From contig JAGAKF010000091.1 in the NCBI GenBank assembly GCA_017625835.1, positions 1-32,740 on the forward strand: 32,740 bases of DNA. Reading direction: 5' to 3'. How positions within the stretch are numbered: position 1 is the stretch's first letter; each line of letters begins with the position of its first letter. The position numbers and the translations under genes are program-made. Source of the DNA: Clostridia bacterium. GTDB lineage: Bacteria; Bacillota; Clostridia; Oscillospirales; Acutalibacteraceae. The notes under the pieces are model-generated. The model did not search any database. It saw only the letters and a program-made list of their open reading frames with translations, and was not told the DNA's origin. This document shows, piece by piece, positions 2,087 to 32,740 of this stretch.

Positions 2087-3556
2087 ATGAATACAGATAA
2101 GATTGTAAGAAACTCTTTGCTTGCTCTTTCTAAAGCAATAATCTTTTCAATGCCTCAGAAGAACTTCACAACAAGTGAAATTGCAAATAAATATATGCTC
2201 AGGGGTGACGATAAATTTACTGACCGTGGCGGAAAATGCTTTTCCTGCGGTTTCGGTAAAACTATACTGACGCCTGATAACGTTACAAAAGAAAAATATT
2301 TCATCGCAGGTTATGATTCGAACAATCCTGCACAGGGCGTTCTTGACGATATGTTTGCCCGTGCGGTTTATATTGACGACAATACGGGCAGAGGCGGAGT
2401 TGTTATATGCTCTGTTGATGCGGTCGGTATCAGCAGAAGGGACATAAACCGTATCCGAAAACTCGTTATCGAAAGCGGTAAGATTCCGTCACTTAAGTCG
2501 ATTAATATCTGCGCAACCCATTCGCACTCCGCTGTTGACACTCAGGGTCTCTGGGGAGAGAAGATCTTTAAATGCGGCAGAAATGAAGCTTTTATGACTC
2601 GTCTTTGCAAGCTTACTGCTGATGCAATTATCAAGGCTTACGAAAACAGAACCGACGGTAAGATGTTTTATTCAGTGAAGCAGTCTGAAGACCTTCAGTT
2701 TGACTGCCGTACCCCTGATACATATGATCCCAATATTACAAAAATCCGTTTCGAGTCTTTTGACGGCAGTAAGAATATTCAGGTAATCAACTTTGCTTCC
2801 CATGCCGAGCTTCTCGGAAGCAGTACAAAGAATATCAGCGCAGATTTCCCTGCATATATGATCAAAGAGATCGAGTCGAACAACGAGAACTGCGAAGTTG
2901 TATTCATCAACGGTGCGATCGGCGGAATGATTTCTGCAAAGGAAATCAAAAAGGTTTACAGAGAGCAGATCGACTGCGAAGCTTATACCAAGGAATTCGG
3001 AAAGAATCTTGGTGCGATAGTAAATTCTCTTACAGACGAAACAGAACTTGCACCGATAATCAACGTTAAATCTACCGGCGTGGATATTGCGGCGGCTAAC
3101 TATGTCTTGATCCTTGCAAGACTTCTCGGTGTATTGAATAACGACATTTCAAGAGTACGCAGCAAGGGCGTTGCTTCAATTTATTCCGAGGTCGGTTACC
3201 TTGAACTCGGTGAAAAAGAAATAGGAATGTTCCTTATCCCGGGCGAGCTGTTCCCCGAACTCTTCAACGGTGATTTCCTTAGCGAAAAAGAGTCTGCGAA
3301 TGGCACGAAGGCGAATTACAACATTCTTAAGGATCTTGGAGATACAAAGCATAAATTCGTTGTAGGGCTTTGTAACGACGAATTAGGCTATATAATCCCG
3401 GATAACGATTTCTTCCTTAATTCAAGAATGCCGTACATAAATAAAGGTAAGGACAGATTTGACCGCGACCATTATGAAGAAACAAACTCAACAGGCCCCG
3501 AAACCGCAAGGACGTTGCTCGAAGCAACAGAAAAGCTGATCAGATCATCCAGATAA
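2087..3556 (+). CDS. Neutral/alkaline ceramidase-like hydrolase
   Basis: The 489-residue product follows the neutral/alkaline non-lysosomal ceramidase pattern. It has GFGKTILTPDN near residue 55, the zinc-site motif ATHSHS at 143-148 (His145, His147), and NFASHAELLG with His239 followed by ISADFPAYM. A glycine-rich NGAIGGMIS loop, where the family carries its active-site serine, comes later. The family hydrolyses the N-acyl bond of ceramides, but many bacterial members act on unknown amides. There is no signal peptide, so it should act in the cytosol, unlike secreted Pseudomonas ceramidase. It is shorter than secreted family members and lacks an obvious C-terminal Ig-like domain. It has its own promoter and the ribosome binding site AAGGGGGAGA, and ends at a shared terminator. 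Family assignment is good; substrate is unknown. Confidence 0.85.
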   Translation: MNTDKIVRNSLLALSKAIIFSMPQKNFTTSEIANKYMLRGDDKFTDRGGKCFSCGFGKTILTPDNVTKEKYFIAGYDSNNPAQGVLDDMFARAVYIDDNTGRGGVVICSVDAVGISRRDINRIRKLVIESGKIPSLKSINICATHSHSAVDTQGLWGEKIFKCGRNEAFMTRLCKLTADAIIKAYENRTDGKMFYSVKQSEDLQFDCRTPDTYDPNITKIRFESFDGSKNIQVINFASHAELLGSSTKNISADFPAYMIKEIESNNENCEVVFINGAIGGMISAKEIKKVYREQIDCEAYTKEFGKNLGAIVNSLTDETELAPIINVKSTGVDIAAANYVLILARLLGVLNNDISRVRSKGVASIYSEVGYLELGEKEIGMFLIPGELFPELFNGDFLSEKESANGTKANYNILKDLGDTKHKFVVGLCNDELGYIIPDNDFFLNSRMPYINKGKDRFDRDHYEETNSTGPETARTLLEATEKLIRSSR

Positions 3557-5270: not shown

Positions 5271-5426
5271 TTATTCTTCGGAAAACATATCCTTTCCGAC
5301 TCCGCATAGCGGACAGACGAAGTCGTCAGGCAGTTCATCAAATTTTTGTCCCGGTTCGATGCCGTGTTCAGGGTCGCCGAGACTTTCGTCGTATTCCCAA
5401 CCGCATACGTCACAAATGTATTTCAT
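5271..5426 (-). CDS. Rubredoxin
   Basis: The 51-residue protein has the two rubredoxin knuckles CDVCG (Cys5, Cys8) and CPLCG (Cys38, Cys41), with the conserved [18 protein letters not shown] context. It binds one Fe(SCys)4 centre and carries single electrons in the cytosol. The start was chosen at the ATG 5424-5426 because AAAGGAGG lies 7 bases before it; an upstream in-frame ATG (5477) has no such site and would add a non-homologous tail. The next gene upstream on the same strand is fprA, whose product is the classical rubredoxin oxidase, so the two likely act together in O2 or NO removal. A MITE-like repeat and the fprA terminator separate them, so separate transcription is likely. Confidence 0.96.
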
Positions 5427-5496
5427 CGCAAAACCTCCTTTAATGAAAGTTTTGTCAGATGATTTTAATTTATTCATAATTTATGGGTGGTTGTAA

Positions 5497-5815
5497 CAAA
5501 TTCAGGTTTGTCGAGCAAAGGCGATGCCTTTGCAATGATGCATCCGCTGTGCAGATATGATGAATGATGTTCGCTACGCGAATGATGCGTTTGCGTAGCA
5601 AACATTAAGGGTCTGCGACGCTGAAATATAACACCCGACTTTGATAGTGCATGTAGGGGGAGGCGTTTCGCCTCCCGCAAAATTGCACCGTATCTGACGG
5701 GACGGGAAACCCGTCCCCTACGTGCCAAGCTGAATAAACAGCGTAGGGCGGTGGCTTGCTGCCGCCGACAGAATTTATAGACTTTCATTAAATCATCCCG
5801 ACAAACCCGAATTTG
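5497..5815 (-). mobile_element. MITE-like palindromic element, copy 1 (complete)
   Basis: This 319-bp non-coding element is bounded by imperfect 17-bp terminal inverted repeats (CAAATTCAGGTTTGTCG at 5497-5513; CGACAAACCCGAATTTG at 5799-5815, one mismatch). Between them is a chain of hairpin modules, e.g. GGGACGGG/CCCGTCCC, GGGAGGCG/CGCCTCCC, GCAAAGGC/GCCTTTGC, TTCGC/GCGAA. A second copy in opposite orientation begins at 32438. No transposase is encoded and I see no clear target-site duplication. The long open frame across it is an artefact of the palindromes. Confidence 0.85.
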
Positions 5816-5867
5816 GCGATAGGAATTCAATAAATACCCACAGTCTTTATATAGGTAAAGGACAAGA

Positions 5868-5901
5868 AAACAGCAACGTTGATTTCGCAACGTTGCTGTT
5901 T
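5868..5901 (-). terminator. Terminator of fprA
   Basis: Arms AAACAGCAACGTTG and CAACGTTGCTGTTT pair perfectly around a 6-nt loop. A T-rich stretch follows on the minus strand. Confidence 0.85.
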
Positions 5902-5924
5902 ATGATAAAACTTAACAGATTGAA

Positions 5925-7079
5925 TTAACCGCAAAGCTCTTCGCAAAGTGCATCAATAGCGGCAATGCTTGTTTCATTGAGTGCGGATTTGATCTGAACC
6001 GTGTTTTCGGCAAAAGTTATGTTCTTTGAACCTTCGAGCATCTTGCGCATCATCTTTGCGGCAACGGGACCCCATGAACCGTTTTCGATGAAAGCAACAG
6101 TTCTGTTCTGGTAAAATCTTTCTGTAAGGTGATTGATGAATTCTTTCATAAACGGGAAAATATCACCGTTATAAGTAGTAGTAGCAAGAACGATCTTTCC
6201 GTAACGGAACGCGTCTTCAACAGCTTCGTGCATATCACAACGTGCAAGGTCGTTAACAACAACCTTCGGGCAACCCTTAGCCTTAAGCTTTTCTGCGAGC
6301 AACTCTGCTGCCGCCTTTGTGTTTCCGTAAACCGATGTGTAGGCGATTACGATGCCTTCGCTTTCAACGCCGTATGATGACCATACATCGTAGAGGTTGA
6401 TGTAGTAACCGAGATTTTCTGTAAGAATCGGACCGTGCAACGGGCAGATGATTTCAACGTCAAGTGTCGCAAGTTTTTTAAGGAGTGCCTGAACCTGAAC
6501 GCCGTATTTGCCGACGATTCCGAAATAGTATCTTCTTGCTTCGCAAGCCCAGTCCTGCTCAACGTCAAGTGCGCCGAACTTTCCGAATCCGTCAGCGGAG
6601 AAAACAACCTTATCCTTTGAATCGTAGCTTACCATGACCTCAGGCCAATGAACCATCGGAGCAGTATAGAATGTAAGAGTATGTGCACCAAGCTTGAGAG
6701 TATCACCTTCGCTGACAACGAGACGTCTGTCCGAGTAATCGTTGCCGAAAAAGTTAGCCATCATATTGAAAGCCTTCATTGTTGCAACAACGCAGGATGA
6801 GGGATATTTCTTAAGAAAAGCGTCGATGTTCGCTGAATGGTCGGGTTCCATATGATGAACGATGAGGTAATCGGGCTCTTTACCGTCAAGAATTTCTTCA
6901 AGGTTTTTGAACCATTCATCGCCGAAGTTTTTGTCGGCTGTGTCCGTGACAGCAATTTTTTCGTCCATAATAACATATGAATTATAAGCAATGCCGTCCG
7001 GGATATCGAACTGACCTTCAAAAAGATCTGTGCTGTGGTCGTTGACACCGATGTATTTAATATCGTCTGTAATAAACAT
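5925..7079 (-). CDS. fprA: FprA-type flavodiiron protein
   Basis: The 384-residue protein is an A-type flavoprotein, which reduces O2 to water and/or NO to N2O with electrons usually delivered by rubredoxin. The N-terminal metallo-beta-lactamase-like domain carries the diiron ligands: H76-x-E78-x-D80-H81 in HHMEPDH, H144 in MVHWPE, D163 in FSADGFGKFGA and H215 in CPLHGP. A C-terminal flavodoxin domain begins near residue 243 with the FMN phosphate loop YTSVYGNTKAAAE. The start at MFITDD fits family N-termini and follows AAGGAG. The longer upstream in-frame extension crosses the promoter and was rejected. It has its own promoter at 7108-7136 and a rubredoxin gene downstream. Assignment is secure; O2 versus NO preference cannot be read from sequence. 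Confidence 0.96.
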   Translation of the reverse strand: MFITDDIKYIGVNDHSTDLFEGQFDIPDGIAYNSYVIMDEKIAVTDTADKNFGDEWFKNLEEILDGKEPDYLIVHHMEPDHSANIDAFLKKYPSSCVVATMKAFNMMANFFGNDYSDRRLVVSEGDTLKLGAHTLTFYTAPMVHWPEVMVSYDSKDKVVFSADGFGKFGALDVEQDWACEARRYYFGIVGKYGVQVQALLKKLATLDVEIICPLHGPILTENLGYYINLYDVWSSYGVESEGIVIAYTSVYGNTKAAAELLAEKLKAKGCPKVVVNDLARCDMHEAVEDAFRYGKIVLATTTYNGDIFPFMKEFINHLTERFYQNRTVAFIENGSWGPVAAKMMRKMLEGSKNITFAENTVQIKSALNETSIAAIDALCEELCG

Positions 7080-11330: not shown

Positions 11331-12965
11331 TTAAAATAAACCTTTGAAATAATATTTTTTATCTCGCGGTCTCTCGTCAATCATCGTTATGAGCTCGAGA
11401 TAAAATTCCTGTGTTTTTTCGGCAGTCGTGTTCATACCGACTACCGTGCCGTGATGTCCTCTTCTGACAGGCATAACGTTCCATTTCCCTTTGACGATGT
11501 TTTCGCTGTCAAAGTCCTGCCATTCGTCGGTAAACGGATATTCAGCGGAAATAACATTTACCATACCGTCATTCTCAAGCCACTTTTCATCAATCGGATA
11601 ATCTGAAACTTTGTTTTCGGAATAAGAACCGATGAGAGTTGCAGGGAGATAAAGAATATCTTTAAAAGTAAGAACTTCTCTGTCGGGTACGTGTTTTCCA
11701 AAACTTTCTTTTGTTGCTGAGTATGCGTATGAAAAGTAATAAACATTATCGACTGTTTTGATAGTTTTGTTTATTTCTGCTGCGCCGTCGGGGGAGAGGT
11801 CATAGGCCGCATTGTCTGTGCCGTGACCGAAATCTGTGTTGATAATTTCATCCAGATCCTGAGTTTCGGGATCGATTCCGAAATGCTCGAGGTGGAAATC
11901 GTAGTACTGTCCTGCCTCTATACTCTGCATAAACTGGCTTCCGTAAAAGACTACGTCAAGAGCGGTGCCTATAAGGCTTTCGTACTGACCGACGCAGTAA
12001 TAAAGCGTTGAACCGTTATGAGGGGAGCAGAGAGTTGTTACGCTGTTGATGTAATTCTCTTTTCCACCTTTGAAGAGTTCTGAAACATCGTCGGGGCTTG
12101 CATTCATCTCTTCTTCGTTTCCGTAAGCAAGAAGTGATGTAAGCATTCTTACAGTTGCACCGCCGAAGCTGTGTCCGACTAGGTTGAGCTTGATAATCTG
12201 ACCGCCCTTGGTTTTTGCTCCCCAGTCGCCTGCAAGTTTGGTCTCATATGTTCTGCCGTACCGCTCGTGATTATGTGCCTTACTGTGTGCTTCACCGTAG
12301 TCAACGGTTGTGCCCATCAGCTGAGCGTAAAGCTCACAAGCTCTGTCCCACGTGCTTGAAAAAGGACCGACGGAAGCTTCGTAAACTTCATAGCCTTTTT
12401 CATCTCTGAGATATGTTGCAACGTTGCCTGTTGCTCCACCCCAATACGGATTGGCTTCATTGATTTTTGATTCCGCACCGTAACCTCCGAGTCCGTGAAC
12501 AAGGACGTACGGATATTCAACATACTCTTCGCAGAACCATTTTTCATAAAGTCCCGTCGGAATCGGTATTATCAAAGCGATTACAAGAACTATCGCAACA
12601 ACCGCAGTTATGATTTTCTTTACGGGAGTTTTTTTCTTCTCTTTTTTGATAACGGGTTCGGGCGTAACAAGAGTTTCCTCAGGCTTCGAAGCTTCATATT
12701 CCATAGGTGAATTATCTTCAAAGTCGTCCTGATAGGATACCTCAGGTATAACAGCAGTCACATAATCTTCTGTGTCTCGAAGAAGAAAATCCGTTGATAC
12801 ATTAAACAGCTCTGAAAGTGCAAGGATTTTATCGGCAGCGGGAACAGCTTTGCCGGATTCCCAACTTGATACAGTCTGTCTTGAAACGTTGAGCTTTTCT
12901 GCAAGATCCTCCTGGGATAAATCAGCGTCGCGTCTCAATAAGCTTATTTTTTCATTTATTGTCAT
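11331..12965 (-). CDS. XRE HTH - transmembrane - family I.5 lipase fusion
   Basis: The 544-residue protein has three parts. Residues 5-62 are a Cro/C1-type helix-turn-helix (LSQEDLAEKLNVSRQTVSSW then ESGKAVP). Residues ~118-136 are one transmembrane helix after a Lys-rich stretch. Residues 150-544 form an extracellular alpha/beta hydrolase closely resembling Geobacillus/Staphylococcus lipases (YPYVLVHGLGGYG, YWGGATGN, SSTWDRACELYAQL). The catalytic triad is predicted as Ser266 (GHSFGG), Asp466 (WLENDGMVN) and His505. Zinc-site residues of family I.5 also appear to be present: Asp207, His227, His233, Asp384. The reading frame is continuous across all parts, so this is a real fusion, topologically N-in/C-out. 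Its promoter carries an inverted repeat in the spacer, suggesting autoregulation (inference). It is the first gene of a two-gene operon with the dockerin protein. Confidence 0.9.
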   Translation of the reverse strand: MTINEKISLLRRDADLSQEDLAEKLNVSRQTVSSWESGKAVPAADKILALSELFNVSTDFLLRDTEDYVTAVIPEVSYQDDFEDNSPMEYEASKPEETLVTPEPVIKKEKKKTPVKKIITAVVAIVLVIALIIPIPTGLYEKWFCEEYVEYPYVLVHGLGGYGAESKINEANPYWGGATGNVATYLRDEKGYEVYEASVGPFSSTWDRACELYAQLMGTTVDYGEAHSKAHNHERYGRTYETKLAGDWGAKTKGGQIIKLNLVGHSFGGATVRMLTSLLAYGNEEEMNASPDDVSELFKGGKENYINSVTTLCSPHNGSTLYYCVGQYESLIGTALDVVFYGSQFMQSIEAGQYYDFHLEHFGIDPETQDLDEIINTDFGHGTDNAAYDLSPDGAAEINKTIKTVDNVYYFSYAYSATKESFGKHVPDREVLTFKDILYLPATLIGSYSENKVSDYPIDEKWLENDGMVNVISAEYPFTDEWQDFDSENIVKGKWNVMPVRRGHHGTVVGMNTTAEKTQEFYLELITMIDERPRDKKYYFKGLF

Positions 12966-26440: not shown

Positions 26441-27334
26441 ATGACCTCAGCACTGTTGATTTTATTAATAGTTGTTCTATACAGCTTTCAGACATTATTC
26501 TGTACGATGTATACAAACAAATATCCCGGTAAGCCCGAAAACGCTTCGCCCGTGTTCTGCGTGCTTGAAAGCATTGCAATCGCACTTTTCACCTGGGCGT
26601 GGATCGGCTTTAAGTTTGAACTGTCGCTGATGACGCTTCTTTTCGGTGTACTGAATGCCGTAGCGCTTTATGGCTATAACACATCACTTATAAAAGCAGG
26701 AGCTAAAGGCTCGTATGCTTTTCTGAACGTTGCACAGCTTTTCGGCGGAATTCTTGTTCCTCTGCTTTATACAACGGTTTTCCTCGGGGATGATCTTCGA
26801 TGGTATCAGCTCGCGGCGATAGCTATGATGCTTGTTTCATTTGTATTGATGAATCTGAAAGAGCTCAAAAAGACAAAAGGCGAAGAGCGCAAAAAGACTC
26901 CGTGGACTTACTACCTTTTCTGCGCTATTCTCTTTATCTGCAACGGTATGTACGGAACATTGCTTAAAATGCAGTCTGATTATAACGAATCGGAGAAAAA
27001 CGAAATGGTTATCATTACATACGGTATTATGGGTGTAATCGCATTGATTCAGCTTGCATTCAAAGAGAAAAAAGATACTCTGAAGGCTTTTAAGATTGAT
27101 AAAAAGGCGGCTTTACCGCTTGTGTTGTGTCTTGCGAGTGCGGCTCTGGCGATTAACGTTCTTGTAACTGTTATCCCGATGGTAAACACTGCGGTACTGT
27201 ATACGGTAGAAAACGGCGGCGTGCTTATATTGGCAGCAATGTATTCATTCATTTTCTTCAAGGAAAAACCGCAGTTGTCAACTATTTTAGGTATAATAGC
27301 AGCGACTGTAAGCATAACTGTACTGAGCATATAA
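26441..27334 (+). CDS. DMT-superfamily (EamA-like) transporter
   Basis: The 297-residue protein has ten hydrophobic helices in two five-helix halves, the organisation of drug/metabolite transporters. Typical segments are ALYGYNTSLIKAGAKGSYAF, GGILVPLLYTTVFLGDDL, and in the second half ENGGVLILAAMYSFIFFKEK. The family mostly exports metabolites; the substrate cannot be predicted. The start ATG follows AAAGGAGAA. No convincing promoter is seen between the tRNA-Leu terminator and the gene. It ends at a terminator shared with the convergent SCP2 operon. Confidence 0.88.
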   Translation: MTSALLILLIVVLYSFQTLFCTMYTNKYPGKPENASPVFCVLESIAIALFTWAWIGFKFELSLMTLLFGVLNAVALYGYNTSLIKAGAKGSYAFLNVAQLFGGILVPLLYTTVFLGDDLRWYQLAAIAMMLVSFVLMNLKELKKTKGEERKKTPWTYYLFCAILFICNGMYGTLLKMQSDYNESEKNEMVIITYGIMGVIALIQLAFKEKKDTLKAFKIDKKAALPLVLCLASAALAINVLVTVIPMVNTAVLYTVENGGVLILAAMYSFIFFKEKPQLSTILGIIAATVSITVLSI

Positions 27335-27348
27335 TTTTAATAAAATTT

Positions 27349-27385
27349 AAAGCGGTATCGGAATTTCCGATACCGCTTAGTTTTA
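27349..27385. terminator. Bidirectional terminator
   Basis: Arms AAGCGGTATCGG and CCGATACCGCTT pair perfectly around a 5-nt loop. It ends the DMT gene (+) and the SCP2/transketolase operon (-). Confidence 0.9.
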
Positions 27386-27391
27386 TGTCTC

Positions 27392-28195
27392 TTATTTAGC
27401 GTAGTCGCCGACCTGCATCATGAAGTCACCGATCTGTGCGCCGAATTCGGGAGCACCGTCCATGATGAGCTTGCCCTGCTTTGTGGATTCAAGCATATCG
27501 TCTGTTGAAAGAAGAATGCCCAATGCACTCGGGAGAGAGTCAAATCTCATTGTGAAGAACGGCATAGCTCTCTTGTATGTGCCACGACCTGAACGTGTCT
27601 TACCTGCCTTAACGCGAAGGAAAGCAGAAACTTCAGGATAACCGTCAACTGCCCATGCATAAACACGGTCTGGGCTCTTTGAAGCCCAGTCATGAACACC
27701 TTCGTGTCCGTGCTTGTTGAGCTGGCTGATACCTGATGAAAGAAGGTAGAAGAAGCACTTAACAGCGAGCTTCTGAGTTTCCTCATCTGCGGGAGCCTCC
27801 GTGATTGTAAGAAGTGAAGACATTTTAAGGAGAACCATCATAAATGCTGCGAACTCCAGGGGTTTTTTTACAACACCCTTCATCTTCGGAAGAGTAGAGG
27901 GGCCGATCTTACCCTTAAAAAATGCGTTCATTGTTTCCATGTTCTTGAACTCGAGCTCGATGTGAGCGTTTGTTGCAACCTTGTCAGCGCATACTTTCCA
28001 CTCGCCGTTGTTAACGGTGAAGTGAGTAGCATATTTGCCGTCGGGAGCAGAGGGATCAAGAGCACTTACCTGATAAATACAGTGAACCTTTTCAAACTTC
28101 TTAGCAAGGCTCGGAACATCGTTTGCAATAACCTTCAGGAGAGGTAAAGCAGCATTGAGGAAGATTTTATTGGTTAATAAAACTTCGTTTGCCAT
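27392..28195 (-). CDS. SCP2-like lipid-binding protein, copy B
   Basis: The 267-residue soluble protein has no signal peptide. Two stretches fit the sterol-carrier-protein-2 pattern, in which a beta-strand/Gly-rich segment is followed by 'f..G.....pkmkG': ~55-110 (VNNGEWKV, FKNMETMNAFFKGKIGPSTL) and ~185-265 (MRFDSLPSALGILLSTDDML then KQGKLIMDG). It appears homologous to the first gene of the operon (31430-32188): FYLLSSGISQLNKH here against FYTISVAISQIGNH there. SCP2 domains bind fatty acyl chains, sterols or other lipids. It is the last gene of the operon, 19 bp after the transketolase C-subunit gene. The SCP2 call is by pattern and needs a profile search; a lipid-substrate shuttle is inference. 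Confidence 0.7.
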   Translation of the reverse strand: MANEVLLTNKIFLNAALPLLKVIANDVPSLAKKFEKVHCIYQVSALDPSAPDGKYATHFTVNNGEWKVCADKVATNAHIELEFKNMETMNAFFKGKIGPSTLPKMKGVVKKPLEFAAFMMVLLKMSSLLTITEAPADEETQKLAVKCFFYLLSSGISQLNKHGHEGVHDWASKSPDRVYAWAVDGYPEVSAFLRVKAGKTRSGRGTYKRAMPFFTMRFDSLPSALGILLSTDDMLESTKQGKLIMDGAPEFGAQIGDFMMQVGDYAK

Positions 28196-28214
28196 GTGTA
28201 ACCCTTCCTTTCAA

Positions 28215-29234
28215 TTATACTTCGTCGTCCCAATCGTCGTCTTCTTCGAAGTCCTTGTTCATAGCTTCACGAACAGCATTGATAATACCGTTACAGTCGA
28301 TGCCGAGCATTGACATAATGTCTTCGTGAAGACCGATAGGAGCAAACTGGTCCTTAAGACCAAGACGTGTGAATGCGCAACCCTTACCTGCTTCAGCCAT
28401 AACTTCTGCAACAGCAGAGCCGAGACCGCCGAGAATTGTGTGGTCTTCAACTGTGATGATACGGCGTGTATCCTGGATAGCCTTAAGAACAGCTTCCTTA
28501 TCAAGAGGCTTGATTGTATGCATATCAAGAACGCGAACCTTAAGTCCGTCAGCGTTCTCAAGGAACTTAGCAGCCTGGTAAGCCTGGTATACGCAAGAAC
28601 CGCAAGCGATAACAGTGATATCTGTACCGGGGTTAACTTCGATAGCTTTGCCTACTTCGAACTTGTACTCTTTGCCGTAATCCTTACCGTAAAGAACGCG
28701 GTCGAAACCACGGTTGATACGGATGTAGTACGGGCCAAAGTTTTCATAAGCAGCCTGAACAGCTTCAGCTGTCTCAACACCGTCTGCAGGGCAGATGAGT
28801 GTGATGTTAGGCATTGAACGGATAACAGCCATATCGCAGATTGCGTGGTGAGTTGAACCTGCCTGGCCGAAAGATGTACCTGAATGTGTAGCAATAATCT
28901 TAGCGTTTACGTTCTGGTAGCAGATATCTGTGTGAATCTGGTCAGCAGAACGAAGAGCTGCGAAAATTGAGAATGTTGAAACGAAAGGAACGAGGCCTGC
29001 CTTTGCCATACCTGCTGCGATACCGAACATGTTCTGCTCAGCAATACCTACGTTGAAGAAACGGTCGGGGAATTCCTTGCCGAATACACCGATTTTTGTT
29101 GAACCGCCGAGGTCAGCTGTAAGACCAACGATTTCCTTATGCTCACGACCGAGCTCTACGAGAGTCTGGCCGTAAATTTCAGCAGTAGAAAGCTCAGTAG
29201 ATTCAAGAGCTGTATATGTAAGTCCACCTGCCAT
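28215..29234 (-). CDS. Transketolase, C-terminal subunit
   Basis: The 339-residue product holds the pyrimidine-binding and C-terminal domains of a split transketolase. Glu66 in FNVGIAEQNMFGIAAGMA is the conserved residue that activates thiamine diphosphate. FVSTFSIFAALRSADQI, HSGTSFGQAGSTH and RVLDMHTIKPLD are family segments. It must pair with the N-subunit encoded immediately upstream; the two genes are 2 bp apart and the C-subunit ribosome binding site lies inside the N-subunit gene, which favours equal synthesis. The extreme C-terminus is very acidic (DFEEDDDWDDEV), unusual for the family. Operon context (aminotransferase, SCP2-like proteins) argues against a simple pentose-phosphate role. 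Confidence 0.93.
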   Translation of the reverse strand: MAGGLTYTALESTELSTAEIYGQTLVELGREHKEIVGLTADLGGSTKIGVFGKEFPDRFFNVGIAEQNMFGIAAGMAKAGLVPFVSTFSIFAALRSADQIHTDICYQNVNAKIIATHSGTSFGQAGSTHHAICDMAVIRSMPNITLICPADGVETAEAVQAAYENFGPYYIRINRGFDRVLYGKDYGKEYKFEVGKAIEVNPGTDITVIACGSCVYQAYQAAKFLENADGLKVRVLDMHTIKPLDKEAVLKAIQDTRRIITVEDHTILGGLGSAVAEVMAEAGKGCAFTRLGLKDQFAPIGLHEDIMSMLGIDCNGIINAVREAMNKDFEEDDDWDDEV

Positions 29235-29236
29235 AA

Positions 29237-30106
29237 TTAGATGCCCTCCTTTTCTGCACGAGCTTTACGCTTCTCATAGTAATTGTCAAGGCTCTTCTTA
29301 GCGAGCTCATATTTCTCAGTGTCGATAGCGCCGTAATGCCAATGATAGTCATCAGCCATGAAGTCGATACCCTCACCCTTGATTGTATTAGCAACGATCA
29401 TAACAGGAGCGTCGGGCTCGCCGAGAGCGTAATCAATAGCTTCTGAAAGCTCGTTGAGGTTGTGACCGTCAACCTCGATTACGTGGAAGCCGAATGCACG
29501 CCACTTGTCGCAGAAGGGCTCAAGAGGCATAACGTCTTCTGTACGGCCGTCGATCATACACTTGTTACGGTCAACGAATGAGATAACGTTTGTAGCCTTG
29601 AAAGCTGTGATGGCCATAGCTGCTTCCCAGTTTGAACCTTCGTCGCATTCACCGTCGCCGAGGATACAGTATGTCTTGTAATCCTTGCCGAGAACACGAG
29701 CAGCAAGAGCTGTACCGAGAGCGATTGAAAGGCCGTGGCCGAGAGAACCTGTTGATGCGTCAACACCGATAACCTTGTTTGAGTCAAGGTGGATACCCAT
29801 CTTTGAGTTTGTAAGGTTGAATGTCTTGAGCTGCTCAGGATCGTTGAATCCCTTGTCAACAAGAACAGGTGCATAAGCAATACCTGAGTGGCCCTTTGAA
29901 AGGATGAAACGGTCTCTGTCTTCCCAGTTGGGATCGTCAACCTTGATGTTAAGATACTTGTGATAGAGAATGGTCATCATGTCCATAACGCTCATACCGC
30001 CGCCGATATGACCGCTGCCTGCCCAGAAAGTAGTATCAAGGCAAAGTCTGCGGAGCTCGTGAGCTTTCTTTTCAAGAGCTAACCATTCTGTTTTGGTTAA
30101 TGCCAT
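29237..30106 (-). CDS. Transketolase, N-terminal subunit
   Basis: The 289-residue product holds the thiamine-diphosphate-binding half of a split transketolase. The cofactor motif starts at GDG (150-152) in LGDGECDEGSNWEAA and ends at Asn181 in FVDRN. His33 in SGHIGGGMS replaces the usual GHPG context; STGSLGHGLS is also present. Transketolases move a two-carbon ketol unit from a ketose phosphate to an aldehyde. The gene follows the aminotransferase by 43 bp with TAGGAGG as ribosome binding site and is nearly fused to the C-subunit gene. Acceptor specificity cannot be read; an unusual acceptor is suggested by context. Confidence 0.93.
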   Translation of the reverse strand: MALTKTEWLALEKKAHELRRLCLDTTFWAGSGHIGGGMSVMDMMTILYHKYLNIKVDDPNWEDRDRFILSKGHSGIAYAPVLVDKGFNDPEQLKTFNLTNSKMGIHLDSNKVIGVDASTGSLGHGLSIALGTALAARVLGKDYKTYCILGDGECDEGSNWEAAMAITAFKATNVISFVDRNKCMIDGRTEDVMPLEPFCDKWRAFGFHVIEVDGHNLNELSEAIDYALGEPDAPVMIVANTIKGEGIDFMADDYHWHYGAIDTEKYELAKKSLDNYYEKRKARAEKEGI

Positions 30107-30149
30107 AGGTGCTTCCTCCTAAAATTTATTTATATAATGATTTTAAAAA

Positions 30150-31415
30150 TCAAAATGCCTCAGGATGTTCTTTCTTAACGACTTTGAATGCTTCGTCAGC
30201 AACTTCGATTGTGTGCTTGATGTCAGCATCGGATATTGCATAGTTCATGAAGTGGTTGTGGTGGCTGGAGAAGAAGATACCTCTCTTAACGCACTCTGCA
30301 ATCCATGCCTGATGAAGCATCATTGAATCGTCGTTAGCTATTCGCATATAGAAGAGAGCGGGTTCACCTGAGCAAACAAGGTCAAATCCGTTGTTTGCGC
30401 CGGCAGCCTTAAGGCCGTCAAGAAGCTTAACGCTCTTCTCTTTAAGAACCTTCGGAAGGTCAAGAGCCTTCATCTTGTTGATGTTTGCAATAGCTGCTGC
30501 AAACGGAACTGCACTCATCCAGTATGAACCTGTGTAGGACATGCCTGAAACAGCGTCTCTGAGGAATTCCTTACCGCAAAGGCAGGAGATGTTCCAACCG
30601 TTAGCAATAGCCTTACAGAAGCAGATAAGGTCAGCTTCAAAGCCGTAATATGCGTCAGAACCTGCAAGGTCAAGACGGAAGCCGCAACGAACGTCGTCCA
30701 CGATAAGAACGATGCCCTTTTCTGTACAGAGCTTACGTACTTTCTGCCAGTAGCCGTCAGCAGGTGTTACGTTGTCAAAGTAGTTACCGTGAAGGTAAGG
30801 TGTTGAAATGAAAGCAGCGATTTCGCCTTCGTTTTCAGCAACGATCTTCTCAAGAGCTTCGAAATCGTTCCAGTCAACATAGAGGTTGTTTGCAACGTCT
30901 TCAGGAAGAACGCCGGGATAGTCGATCTTCTGAACAACAGCTGAAACACCGTGGTAGAAGCCGTTAACGAAGATGATTTTCTTTCTGTGTGTAGCGTTAC
31001 GTGCAGCCATGATTGCGAGCTGTGTTGTATCGTTACCGTTCTTTGCAAAGAATGCCCAGTCAGCAGTCTTAACGGTGTCAACCATCAATTCTGCAAGCTC
31101 AACCATCTTGTAAGAAGGGGAGGTTGTACAGTTAGCAATCTTAGCCTGCTCCATAGCAGCCTTATCAACGTCGGGGTCGTTGTAACCGAGGATGTTCGGA
31201 CCGTATGCGCACATATAGTCGATAAATTTGTTTCCGTCAACGTCCCAGAAATATGCACCCTTAGCCTTTTCTGAGAAGAAAGGCCATGCACTTACTGGAA
31301 TGAAGTTACCTTCAGCAGGGCCAAGGTGACCGTAAACACCTGAAGGGATTACTTTAGTAGCACGCTGGAAAAGCTCACGGCTTTTGTCGTACTGATTGAT
31401 TTTAATGTTAGCCAT
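30150..31415 (-). CDS. Class III PLP aminotransferase (GSA-aminomutase-like)
   Basis: The 421-residue fold-type I PLP enzyme resembles glutamate-1-semialdehyde aminomutase/omega-aminotransferases. It has SGVYGHLGPAEGNFIPVSAW, the substrate/cofactor region FFAKNGNDTTQLAIMAAR, the pyridine-N Asp240 in VLIVDDVRCGFR and the Schiff-base lysine Lys268 in ICFCKAIANGW. It is not hemL: no tetrapyrrole genes are near, and family signatures deviate (usual DEV is DDV; usual GKxIGGG is CKAIANG). It would aminate a ketone or aldehyde. It lies 14 bp after the first SCP2-like gene and directly before split transketolase, so a product of transketolase is the natural candidate substrate (inference). Confidence 0.9.
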   Translation of the reverse strand: MANIKINQYDKSRELFQRATKVIPSGVYGHLGPAEGNFIPVSAWPFFSEKAKGAYFWDVDGNKFIDYMCAYGPNILGYNDPDVDKAAMEQAKIANCTTSPSYKMVELAELMVDTVKTADWAFFAKNGNDTTQLAIMAARNATHRKKIIFVNGFYHGVSAVVQKIDYPGVLPEDVANNLYVDWNDFEALEKIVAENEGEIAAFISTPYLHGNYFDNVTPADGYWQKVRKLCTEKGIVLIVDDVRCGFRLDLAGSDAYYGFEADLICFCKAIANGWNISCLCGKEFLRDAVSGMSYTGSYWMSAVPFAAAIANINKMKALDLPKVLKEKSVKLLDGLKAAGANNGFDLVCSGEPALFYMRIANDDSMMLHQAWIAECVKRGIFFSSHHNHFMNYAISDADIKHTIEVADEAFKVVKKEHPEAF

Positions 31416-31429
31416 AATGTATATCCCCC

Positions 31430-32188
31430 TTATGCAAGATAAATTGCGACTCTGTCAAGAATACGGTTGAGGTTGTCGATCATATTGATCATACCGTGCA
31501 TAGCAATTGTGCCTTCACCGATCTGAGCAACAGCGTTAACTTTGCCGTCAAAGAGATCGTGAGCAAGCTTCATGCTGCCGAATTCCATGATAGCGCGCGG
31601 CTCTTCGGGAGCCTGCTTGATTGTGATAAGGTGACCTTTCTTAGCGCGGACAGTAGCTGCAGGACCACCCTTGATGGACATCTTGATGTCACCGTCGATG
31701 ATGTGATCTGCTGAGAACTGACCGATCTTATCGTGGTTACCGATCTGTGAAATAGCAACAGAAATTGTATAGAAGAGAAGAGTGGTGCTGAGGTTAAAGA
31801 ATTCCTCATCCTTAAGATCCTCTTCGCTGGGACGAAGATAAGCTGTAAGAATGTCTGTCAGCTTGGTGAATGTATCCAGAAGGAACTTTATGTGAATAAA
31901 GCCCTTTGAGGGGATAGGTGTAACTGTACCGTCGATCATACCGTTGAACTTTTCGCATGATGAGAAAGGAAGCTTGATATCGCATTCGCTGATACCCTGT
32001 TCCATGCGGCACTTACCGTTTTTGAAAGTAAGAGTAGCAGAAGGGCCGTCCTTAACTTCGAAGCCGATAGAAATAGGCTTGCGTTCAGCCAGGAGAGCAC
32101 TTGCCTTGGGGTCAAGCTCGCACAGATTTTCAAGTGTGCCGAGTATAGCATACATATTTATATATGCTAAGGTTTTTGCATCTGTCAA
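31430..32188 (-). CDS. SCP2-like lipid-binding protein, copy A
   Basis: The 252-residue soluble protein is the first gene of the operon. It contains two SCP2-like stretches: ~50-115 (LTFKNGKCRMEQGISECDIK, then FNGMIDGTVTPIPSKGF) and ~165-245 (PRAIMEFGSMKLAHDLFDGK, then VNAVAQIGEGTIAMHG). The second ends in the hydrophobic helix INMIDNLNRILDRV. It is a diverged relative of the last gene of the operon. The start is TTG: AAGGAGG lies exactly 7 bases upstream, while the first internal ATG (codon 12) has no such site. SCP2 folds enclose a lipid tunnel; here a carrier role for a hydrophobic substrate of the transketolase/aminotransferase is inferred. The operon promoter is at 32251-32279. Confidence 0.7.
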   Translation of the reverse strand: MTDAKTLAYINMYAILGTLENLCELDPKASALLAERKPISIGFEVKDGPSATLTFKNGKCRMEQGISECDIKLPFSSCEKFNGMIDGTVTPIPSKGFIHIKFLLDTFTKLTDILTAYLRPSEEDLKDEEFFNLSTTLLFYTISVAISQIGNHDKIGQFSADHIIDGDIKMSIKGGPAATVRAKKGHLITIKQAPEEPRAIMEFGSMKLAHDLFDGKVNAVAQIGEGTIAMHGMINMIDNLNRILDRVAIYLA

Positions 32189-32250: not shown

Positions 32251-32279
32251 ATTGTAACAAAACTAATTATAAAAGTCAA
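32251..32279 (-). promoter_or_regulatory. Promoter of the SCP2-aminotransferase-transketolase operon
   Basis: TTGACT, 17-bp spacer and TACAAT on the minus strand. No further comparable promoter is seen inside the operon, although a 15-bp inverted repeat (TGATTTT-A-AAAATCA) lies before the transketolase N gene. Confidence 0.78.
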
Positions 32280-32437: not shown

Positions 32438-32740
32438 CAAATTCGGGTTTGTCGGGATGATTTAATGAAAGTCTATAAATTCTGTCGGTGGCAGCAAGCC
32501 ACCGCCCTACGCTGTTTATTCAACTCATCACGTAGGGGACGGGTTTCCCGTCCCGCCAGATACGGTGCAATTTTGCGGGAGGCGAAACGCCTCCCCTACG
32601 GGCACTATCAAAGTCGAGGTGTTATATTTTAGCGTCGCAGACCCTTAATGTTTGCACTGCAAACACATCATTCGCGTAGCGAACATCATTCATCATATCC
32701 GCACAGCGGATGCATCATTGCAAAGGCATCGCCTTTGCTC
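32438..32740 (+). mobile_element. MITE-like palindromic element, copy 2 (cut by window end)
   Basis: It starts with the terminal repeat CAAATTCGGGTTTGTCG (32438-32454) and runs to the window edge; about 16 bp, the other terminal repeat, are missing. It is the reverse complement of copy 1 with scattered differences. Hairpin modules are seen at 32487-32503, 32536-32554, 32577-32595, 32650-32664, 32671-32683, 32697-32711 and 32720-32738. It encodes no protein. Confidence 0.85.

Follow-up and report, generated by a model that had tools for sequence, protein, structure and literature searches.

Putative operon joining a FumI-type aminotransferase and a split transketolase to SCP2-like proteins in Acutalibacteraceae, with a possible role in sphingoid-type amino-diol metabolism

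Background

Sphingolipid formation is generally taken to begin with serine palmitoyltransferase, and these lipids are regarded as rare in Bacillota. The serine palmitoyltransferase route forms its carbon-carbon bond by condensation of an amino acid with an acyl-CoA. Here we analyze a five-gene operon, S1-AT-TKN-TKC-S2, in a 32,740 nucleotide stretch of DNA from a Clostridia bacterium of the family Acutalibacteraceae (GenBank assembly GCA_017625835.1, contig JAGAKF010000091.1, positions 1 to 32,740; hereafter the window). The operon encodes two SCP2-like proteins (S1 and S2), a class III aminotransferase (AT) and the two halves of a split transketolase (TKN and TKC). Our best explanation, offered tentatively, is that these proteins form a path of two steps that links a hydrophobic aldehyde, probably a long-chain one, with a sphingoid-type 2-amino-1,3-diol, with the SCP2-like proteins acting as carriers. 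If the path runs in the direction of synthesis, its end product would be of the same kind as that of the serine palmitoyltransferase route, from which the operon would differ by using ketol transfer to an aldehyde.

Parts of this arrangement resemble described systems. The structures 6hbs and 6hbv, which from their name we take to be FumI of Sphingopyxis or close kin, belong to the same aminotransferase subfamily as AT and share its motifs. FumI targets the amine at C2 of long-chain 2-amino-3-hydroxy compounds: according to PMC2933618, the 2-amino group is transferred to pyruvate from hydrolysed fumonisin B1 (2-amino-12,16-dimethylicosane-3,5,10,14,15-pentol). Unlike the role proposed for the operon, FumI serves toxin breakdown. 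The split transketolase of Carboxydothermus hydrogenoformans (6yaj and 6yak; PMC7661550, consulted in part) consists of two chains like that of the operon, but it keeps the acceptor-contact aspartate and arginine that are lost in the operon type. Engineered transketolase/omega-transaminase cascades combine the same two enzyme classes, the expected product type and a changed acceptor position. These cascades are man-made and use short-chain substrates, whereas the operon would be their counterpart in nature, equipped with lipid carriers. One title in the reference list of PMC5073344 describes the transketolase/transaminase synthesis of a short-chain homologue of sphinganine, 2-aminopentane-1,3-diol. 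A prior description of the five-gene set was not found among the listings of searches in the open-licence literature, and an earlier note on this DNA likewise knew of no such system. As far as could be seen, the protein families are known, while the gene combination, the changed transketolase and the predicted route are undescribed.

Results and discussion

Operon genes and proposed scheme

The source genome is 2.1 Mb in size, 77% complete and divided into 103 contigs. The operon consists of the following genes, in order of transcription:

31430..32188, minus strand: S1, tandem SCP2-like protein, first gene, pairs with AT (TTG start, 252 amino acids)
30150..31415, minus strand: AT, class III pyridoxal phosphate (PLP) aminotransferase of the FumI type (421 amino acids)
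29237..30106, minus strand: TKN, N-terminal thiamine diphosphate (ThDP)-binding half of the split transketolase (289 amino acids)
28215..29234, minus strand: TKC, C-terminal half of the split transketolase (339 amino acids)
27392..28195, minus strand: S2, homologue of S1, last gene, pairs with the transketolase (267 amino acids)

In the proposed scheme, the split transketolase would add a C2 ketol unit to R-CHO to give R-CH(OH)-CO-CH2OH, and the FumI-like aminotransferase would convert the ketone to an amine, yielding a long-chain 2-amino-1,3-diol (or the two steps would run in reverse). S2 would assist the transketolase and S1 the aminotransferase, both as SCP2-like holders of poorly soluble intermediates. 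Homology, conserved gene order, the S1/AT and S2/transketolase pairs, the FumI-type motifs and a changed acceptor site were all computed; the substrate, its chain length, the donor and the roles of S1 and S2 are what we infer.

The aminotransferase

AT matches the Pfam family Aminotran_3 (4.9e-39). Among solved structures it is closest to 6hbs, which bears the name "aminopentol aminotransferase" (E-value: 3.2e-84, 286.6 bits), as compared with an E-value of 8.6e-48 (166.6 bits) for the best structure of glutamate-1-semialdehyde aminomutase (GSAM). An assignment of AT to GSAM (hemL) was considered and rejected: AT scores 229.1 against a cut-off of 398 for NF000818 and 199.7 against 527.3 for TIGR00713, and its match to the best GSAM structure is weaker than that to 6hbs. 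The PLP lysine and the motifs of FumI-type aminopentol aminotransferases are present in AT. Among 108 ATs (repeat fetches included), the tested positions of the YGH, KNGxD, VDDVR and GSxW motifs agree in 108/108, and the HN motif is found in 107/108, with a gap in the remaining sequence. The same motifs occur in 6hbs and in 4/4 proteobacterial plasmid relatives; they are absent from GSAM and from two copies of AT492, a second aminotransferase that is encoded beside many of the loci (see below). In a midpoint-rooted tree, the operon ATs join the FumI-like enzymes, apart from GSAM and AT492. Judged by its sequence, AT is a member of the aminopentol-aminotransferase (FumI) type.

The FumI-like aminotransferases of L109-L112 (L and G numbers are our handles) are carried on plasmids of Variovorax, Novosphingobium and Pseudosulfitobacter, with ABC transporters, TetR regulators, a FabG-like reductase or class II aldolases as annotated neighbours. 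No SCP2 or split-transketolase gene is annotated near the four plasmid FumI relatives in a gene table that is incomplete.

The split transketolase

The split transketolase matches Transketolase_N (4.2e-45, in TKN), Transket_pyr (1.5e-42) and Transketolase_C (5.8e-28). The nearest solved relative of both chains is the Carboxydothermus enzyme, with 6yak the best match for TKN, and in a tree of TKC sequences the operon type forms a clade apart from four canonical split transketolases. The two types differ at the acceptor site. We take human D424 to be equivalent to E. coli D469 and yeast D477; this aspartate presumably contacts the 2-hydroxyl of the acceptor, and human R318 presumably contacts its phosphate. 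In the window TKC, the aspartate site is occupied by Ala125. Across 74 distinct operon-type TKC sequences, the D424-equivalent is Ala in 73, Ser in one and Asp in none, as compared with Asp in seven and Leu in two of nine other transketolase-like C-halves. A separate count with repeat fetches gave Ala in 68/71 and Ser in 3/71, with Asp in nine and Leu in two of 11 other C-halves. The R318-equivalent in the 74 sequences is Ala (66), Gly (2), Thr (2), Lys (2), Ser (1) or Arg (1). The equivalents of human E366 (the catalytic glutamate), S345, H416 and R474 are kept in 74/74 TKC, and those of the histidines H37, H77, H110 and H258 in 84/84 TKN, a set whose identity threshold admits canonical chains. 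Measured against pentose-phosphate transketolases, the operon enzyme has the domains, the catalytic glutamate and the active-site histidines, but not the acceptor-contact aspartate and arginine.

Mutations at this position have been used to change aldehyde preference. In the consulted portions of the two sources, D469T belongs to a mutant series in which the substrates of E. coli transketolase shift away from phosphorylated aldehydes towards aliphatic and aromatic ones (PMC5073344), and D477E increases the kcat/KM of the yeast enzyme 50- to 100-fold on two aliphatic aldehydes (PMC5573996). By analogy, the change at the aldehyde-choosing residue suggests that the operon transketolase is fitted to aliphatic aldehydes. 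The earlier note had proposed ketol transfer to a hydrophobic aldehyde followed by amination; the FumI-type AT and the loss of the aspartate in 74/74 TKC lend this predicted chemistry indirect support.

A variant of this chemistry would have the ThDP enzyme transfer an acetyl group from pyruvate, so that the product would be R-CH(OH)-CH(NH2)-CH3, a 1-deoxysphingoid base resembling the FumI substrate. Hydrolysed fumonisin has no 1-hydroxyl, as its name in PMC2933618 indicates, and TKC scores 217 bits against the 1-deoxyxylulose-5-phosphate synthase model, below the cut-off of 466. TKC nevertheless scores higher against transketolase (259 bits), and for TKN the difference is larger (240 bits for transketolase vs. 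48 bits for the synthase). The histidine equivalent to human H110, which we take to contact the C1-hydroxyl of the donor, is among those kept in 84/84 TKN. We regard the 1-deoxy variant as very improbable.

The SCP2-like proteins

S1 and S2 are homologous to each other (hhalign probability 96.6%, E-value: 5e-10), and S1 is an internal tandem repeat, as its N- and C-terminal halves align with each other (95.8%, E-value: 7e-9). The same half-against-half test did not find an internal repeat in S2. The earlier note had placed related SCP2-like proteins at both ends of the operon and had pointed to a profile search with SCP2 (PF02036) as a check. In that search, the window S1 scored 16.5 bits (E-value: 0.011), below the cut-off of 21.3, and the window S2 had no Pfam match. 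Relatives of S1 matched SCP2 at E ≤ 1 in 30/42 cases (best 2.6e-7), relatives of S2 in 4/24 (best 2e-5). A profile search of solved structures gave a best E-value of 0.64 for S1 and no match for S2. Of the earlier claim, the relatedness of the two proteins stands; S1 is a tandem SCP2-like repeat whose window copy falls below the cut-off, and S2 is only a weak SCP2 match. Lipid binding by S1 and S2 is a prediction.

Conservation of gene order

S1 is present in 75 genomes (own genome included) out of 300 sampled from the family, belonging to 32 of 135 genera. Gene order was called with three query sets at 97 loci, namely 72 found through S1, at which S1 is present by construction, and 25 G-handle stretches chosen from earlier hits, with overlaps between the two sources unchecked. 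The complete order S1-AT-TKN-TKC-S2 is present at 65/97 loci, with median gaps of 28, 62, 8 and 58 bases and a maximum of 1266. At 19 loci the order is cut by a contig end, and three more (L045, L054 and L084) end within approximately 330 bases. The remaining loci carry S1-AT alone (7), TKN-TKC-S2 alone (2) or the order TKN-TKC-S2-S1-AT (1, L106). Genes inserted between AT and TKN in L078 and L087 are unlike each other. Carriage as a genus trait was not used as evidence: the 75 carriers include up to four per genus, most non-carriers are unlisted, and at least g15, g48 and g94 are mixed.

The complete order also occurs in other families of the phylum, f116 (L147 and L148) and f117 (L151 and L161 to L165; L150, also of f117, runs off its contig). 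Outside the family the arrangement is rare: AT is found in 3/391 genomes of the class (own included, E ≤ 1e-60) and 7/398 of the phylum (own included, E ≤ 1e-75); it is present in 8/43 f117 genomes, and S2 in 14/394 genomes of the order. Given its presence in these further families, the arrangement is more than chance. The earlier note had named a lack of conservation in relatives as one of the results that would count against it, and the gene order proved to be conserved.

Exchange of the two modules

In all split cases observed, S1 stays with AT, as S2 does with the transketolase. Both modules occur, at separate places, in G022, G725 and G1184. G198, G610 and G619 have S1-AT together with transketolase C-halves that carry Asp or Leu at the acceptor position, and a profile search did not find S2 in these three genomes. 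In G1241, S1-AT is present, and a search with the L151 TKC gave no match at E ≤ 1e-40 (S2 was not searched for there). A comparison of loci within f117 points to exchange of the modules. Relative to L151, the S1 and AT proteins of L161 and L162 are 72-82% identical (AT: 82 and 81%), whereas TKN, TKC and S2 are only 48, 63 and 33% identical, and the TKC of L161 and L162 groups with that of G022 (support 100/99). As read from these comparisons, the S1-AT and transketolase-S2 modules have been exchanged and then reunited with their order unchanged, an argument for a function that they share.

Expression signals

The intergenic gaps of the window operon, from S1 to S2, are 14, 43, 2 and 19 bases, and a purine-rich, ribosome-binding-like stretch precedes each of the five starts. 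Two further features flank the genes:

32251..32279, minus strand: promoter-like site, TTGACT-17-TACAAT with extended -10, a consensus match alone
27350..27378, minus strand: terminator-like hairpin (13 pairs), lying between S2 and a convergent gene at 26441-27334

Chance matches are common in the window scan (12 promoters vs. 7.5 expected; 11 terminators vs. 5.1 expected); the promoter-like site and hairpin of the operon sit at the positions expected for the ends of a unit. Gene calls and signal scan agree with the five same-strand genes, gaps of 2-43 bp, single promoter and single terminator described earlier. The share of C-ending codons for Phe, Tyr, Asn, Asp and His is 0.70-0.80 in AT, TKN, TKC and S2, the highest among the 22 window genes; it is 0.63 in S1 and 0.26-0.68 in the 17 remaining genes. 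AAC accounts for 62 of the 71 Asn codons across the five operon genes. This strong bias suggests strong expression of the operon.

Neighbouring genes and a polar-metabolite alternative

The most frequent neighbour of the operon is a divergent pair at 22 loci, AT492 and a class II aldolase. AT492 is a GSA-type class III aminotransferase of approximately 492 amino acids, and its partner is an aldolase of approximately 406 amino acids with a second aldolase-like half (L074:153-2959, 20 further loci and L101). AT492 is 86-97% identical to the L074 copy in most loci (79% in L043, 74% in L101) and is more conserved than the operon. The pair could provide a second sphingoid or sugar route. One lineage also has three gene families downstream: family 10, an FGGY sugar kinase, at 9 loci; family 8, an M24 peptidase, at 10 loci; and family 9, a further gene, at 9 loci. 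Major facilitator superfamily (MFS) transporters (family 7) of diverse sequence and varying place lie near 11 loci, one of them an MFS_2 protein. TetR-like genes were seen by eye 3' of S2 in L147 and L148, and a polysaccharide-biosynthesis gene lies approximately 2 kb from the operon in L147.

These neighbours bear on a different function for the operon, that of an amino-sugar, aminocyclitol or other polar-metabolite branch in which the SCP2-like proteins would be interaction or regulatory partners that bind no lipid. Class III aminotransferases and split transketolases do occur in amino-sugar and aminocyclitol clusters, the SCP2 matches are weak, and S345, H416 and R474, which we take to be phosphate-contact residues, are kept in TKC. 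The aldolase, the FGGY kinase, the MFS transporters and the polysaccharide gene could fit a role in sugar metabolism. All of them stand outside the unit, however, and at only some of the loci, and 74/74 TKC have lost the acceptor-contact aspartate. The earlier note had regarded co-occurrence with nucleotide-sugar genes as evidence against its proposal; what was found is the aldolase, kinase and transporter genes near part of the loci, with most flank genes not run against Pfam. A polar-metabolite role appears improbable.

Two side observations concern the window outside the operon. The gene at 11331-12965 (minus strand) encodes HTH_3 and lipase-like (PF24708, 3.9e-60) domains in one protein, with a hydrophobic stretch between them noted by eye. 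The window end (32470-32740) and the reverse complement of 5301-6000 have 128 14-mers in common, forming an inverted repeat.

Synthesis or breakdown

The same enzymes could instead serve the breakdown of sphingoid bases from food, the host or other bacteria. AT would then deaminate sphinganine-type bases (pyruvate to alanine), the transketolase would move C1-C2 to an aldose phosphate or other acceptor, and the fatty aldehyde would be oxidised or reduced. FumI acts in this deaminating direction (PMC2933618, consulted part). In G725, the gene after TKN-TKC-S2 encodes an aldehyde dehydrogenase whose match to human fatty aldehyde dehydrogenase (4qgk, 5e-122) comes second to that with the aldehyde dehydrogenase 6k0z (3.9e-135), and an alanine dehydrogenase gene lies near S1-AT. 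A Ceramidase_alk gene lies approximately 4 kb from S1 in L164 (L164:13582-14931; 8.4e-10, above the cut-off), and a weaker match lies in the window at 2087-3556 (plus strand), 24 kb from the operon (4.8e-7, below the cut-off). Many records of S1 loci also name herbivore gut or faeces samples. The G725-type dehydrogenase was rejected as general proof of breakdown, since it is not enriched in carriers: it occurs in 13/78 carriers (the query source G725 included; 12/75 family carriers) and in 12/75 non-carriers, the latter being the first in handle order, one per genus. In good genomes, the counts are 11/70 and 6/53. The codon usage also looks like that of strong, constitutive expression, which counts against breakdown and towards synthesis. 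NAD(P) transhydrogenase genes divergent from S1 or TKN in three lineages (L098:8436-12547, L152:4914-7841 and L153:3824-7479; Pfam for L152 and L153) count in the same direction; transhydrogenase supplies NADPH. On balance, though with little confidence, synthesis is somewhat more likely than breakdown, and we consider the breakdown account rather unlikely.

Several results weigh against the path between a hydrophobic aldehyde and an amino-diol that we favour. The SCP2 match of the S2 relatives is weak. Yeast D477T had little effect and D477E was the best variant (PMC5573996, consulted text), and the Asp-to-Ala change is not among the variants in the consulted text of PMC5073344 and PMC5573996, so the parallel with aliphatic aldehydes is suggestive and not proof. 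Conservation of S345, H416 and R474 means that a sugar phosphate may still be one partner. The presence of S1-AT in G198, G610, G619 and G1241, where no operon-type transketolase was found, indicates that AT can act without that transketolase. Sugar-type neighbours are found at part of the loci, and neither an aldehyde-forming reductase nor an N-acyltransferase was recognised among the recurring neighbours, most flank genes being unannotated.

Conclusions

The path between a hydrophobic aldehyde and a sphingoid-type amino-diol leads to a broader and more doubtful proposal: that Bacillota produce long-chain 2-amino-1,3-diols of the sphingoid type independently of serine palmitoyltransferase, through an aliphatic-aldehyde transketolase and a FumI-like aminotransferase, both served by an SCP2-like carrier of their own, in a natural transketolase-transaminase cascade. 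If sphingoid-type amino-diols are indeed made or consumed by a scattered operon with strong expression, this would alter where such lipids are sought, as in rumen and gut communities, and would provide a natural enzyme pair for chiral amino-diols.

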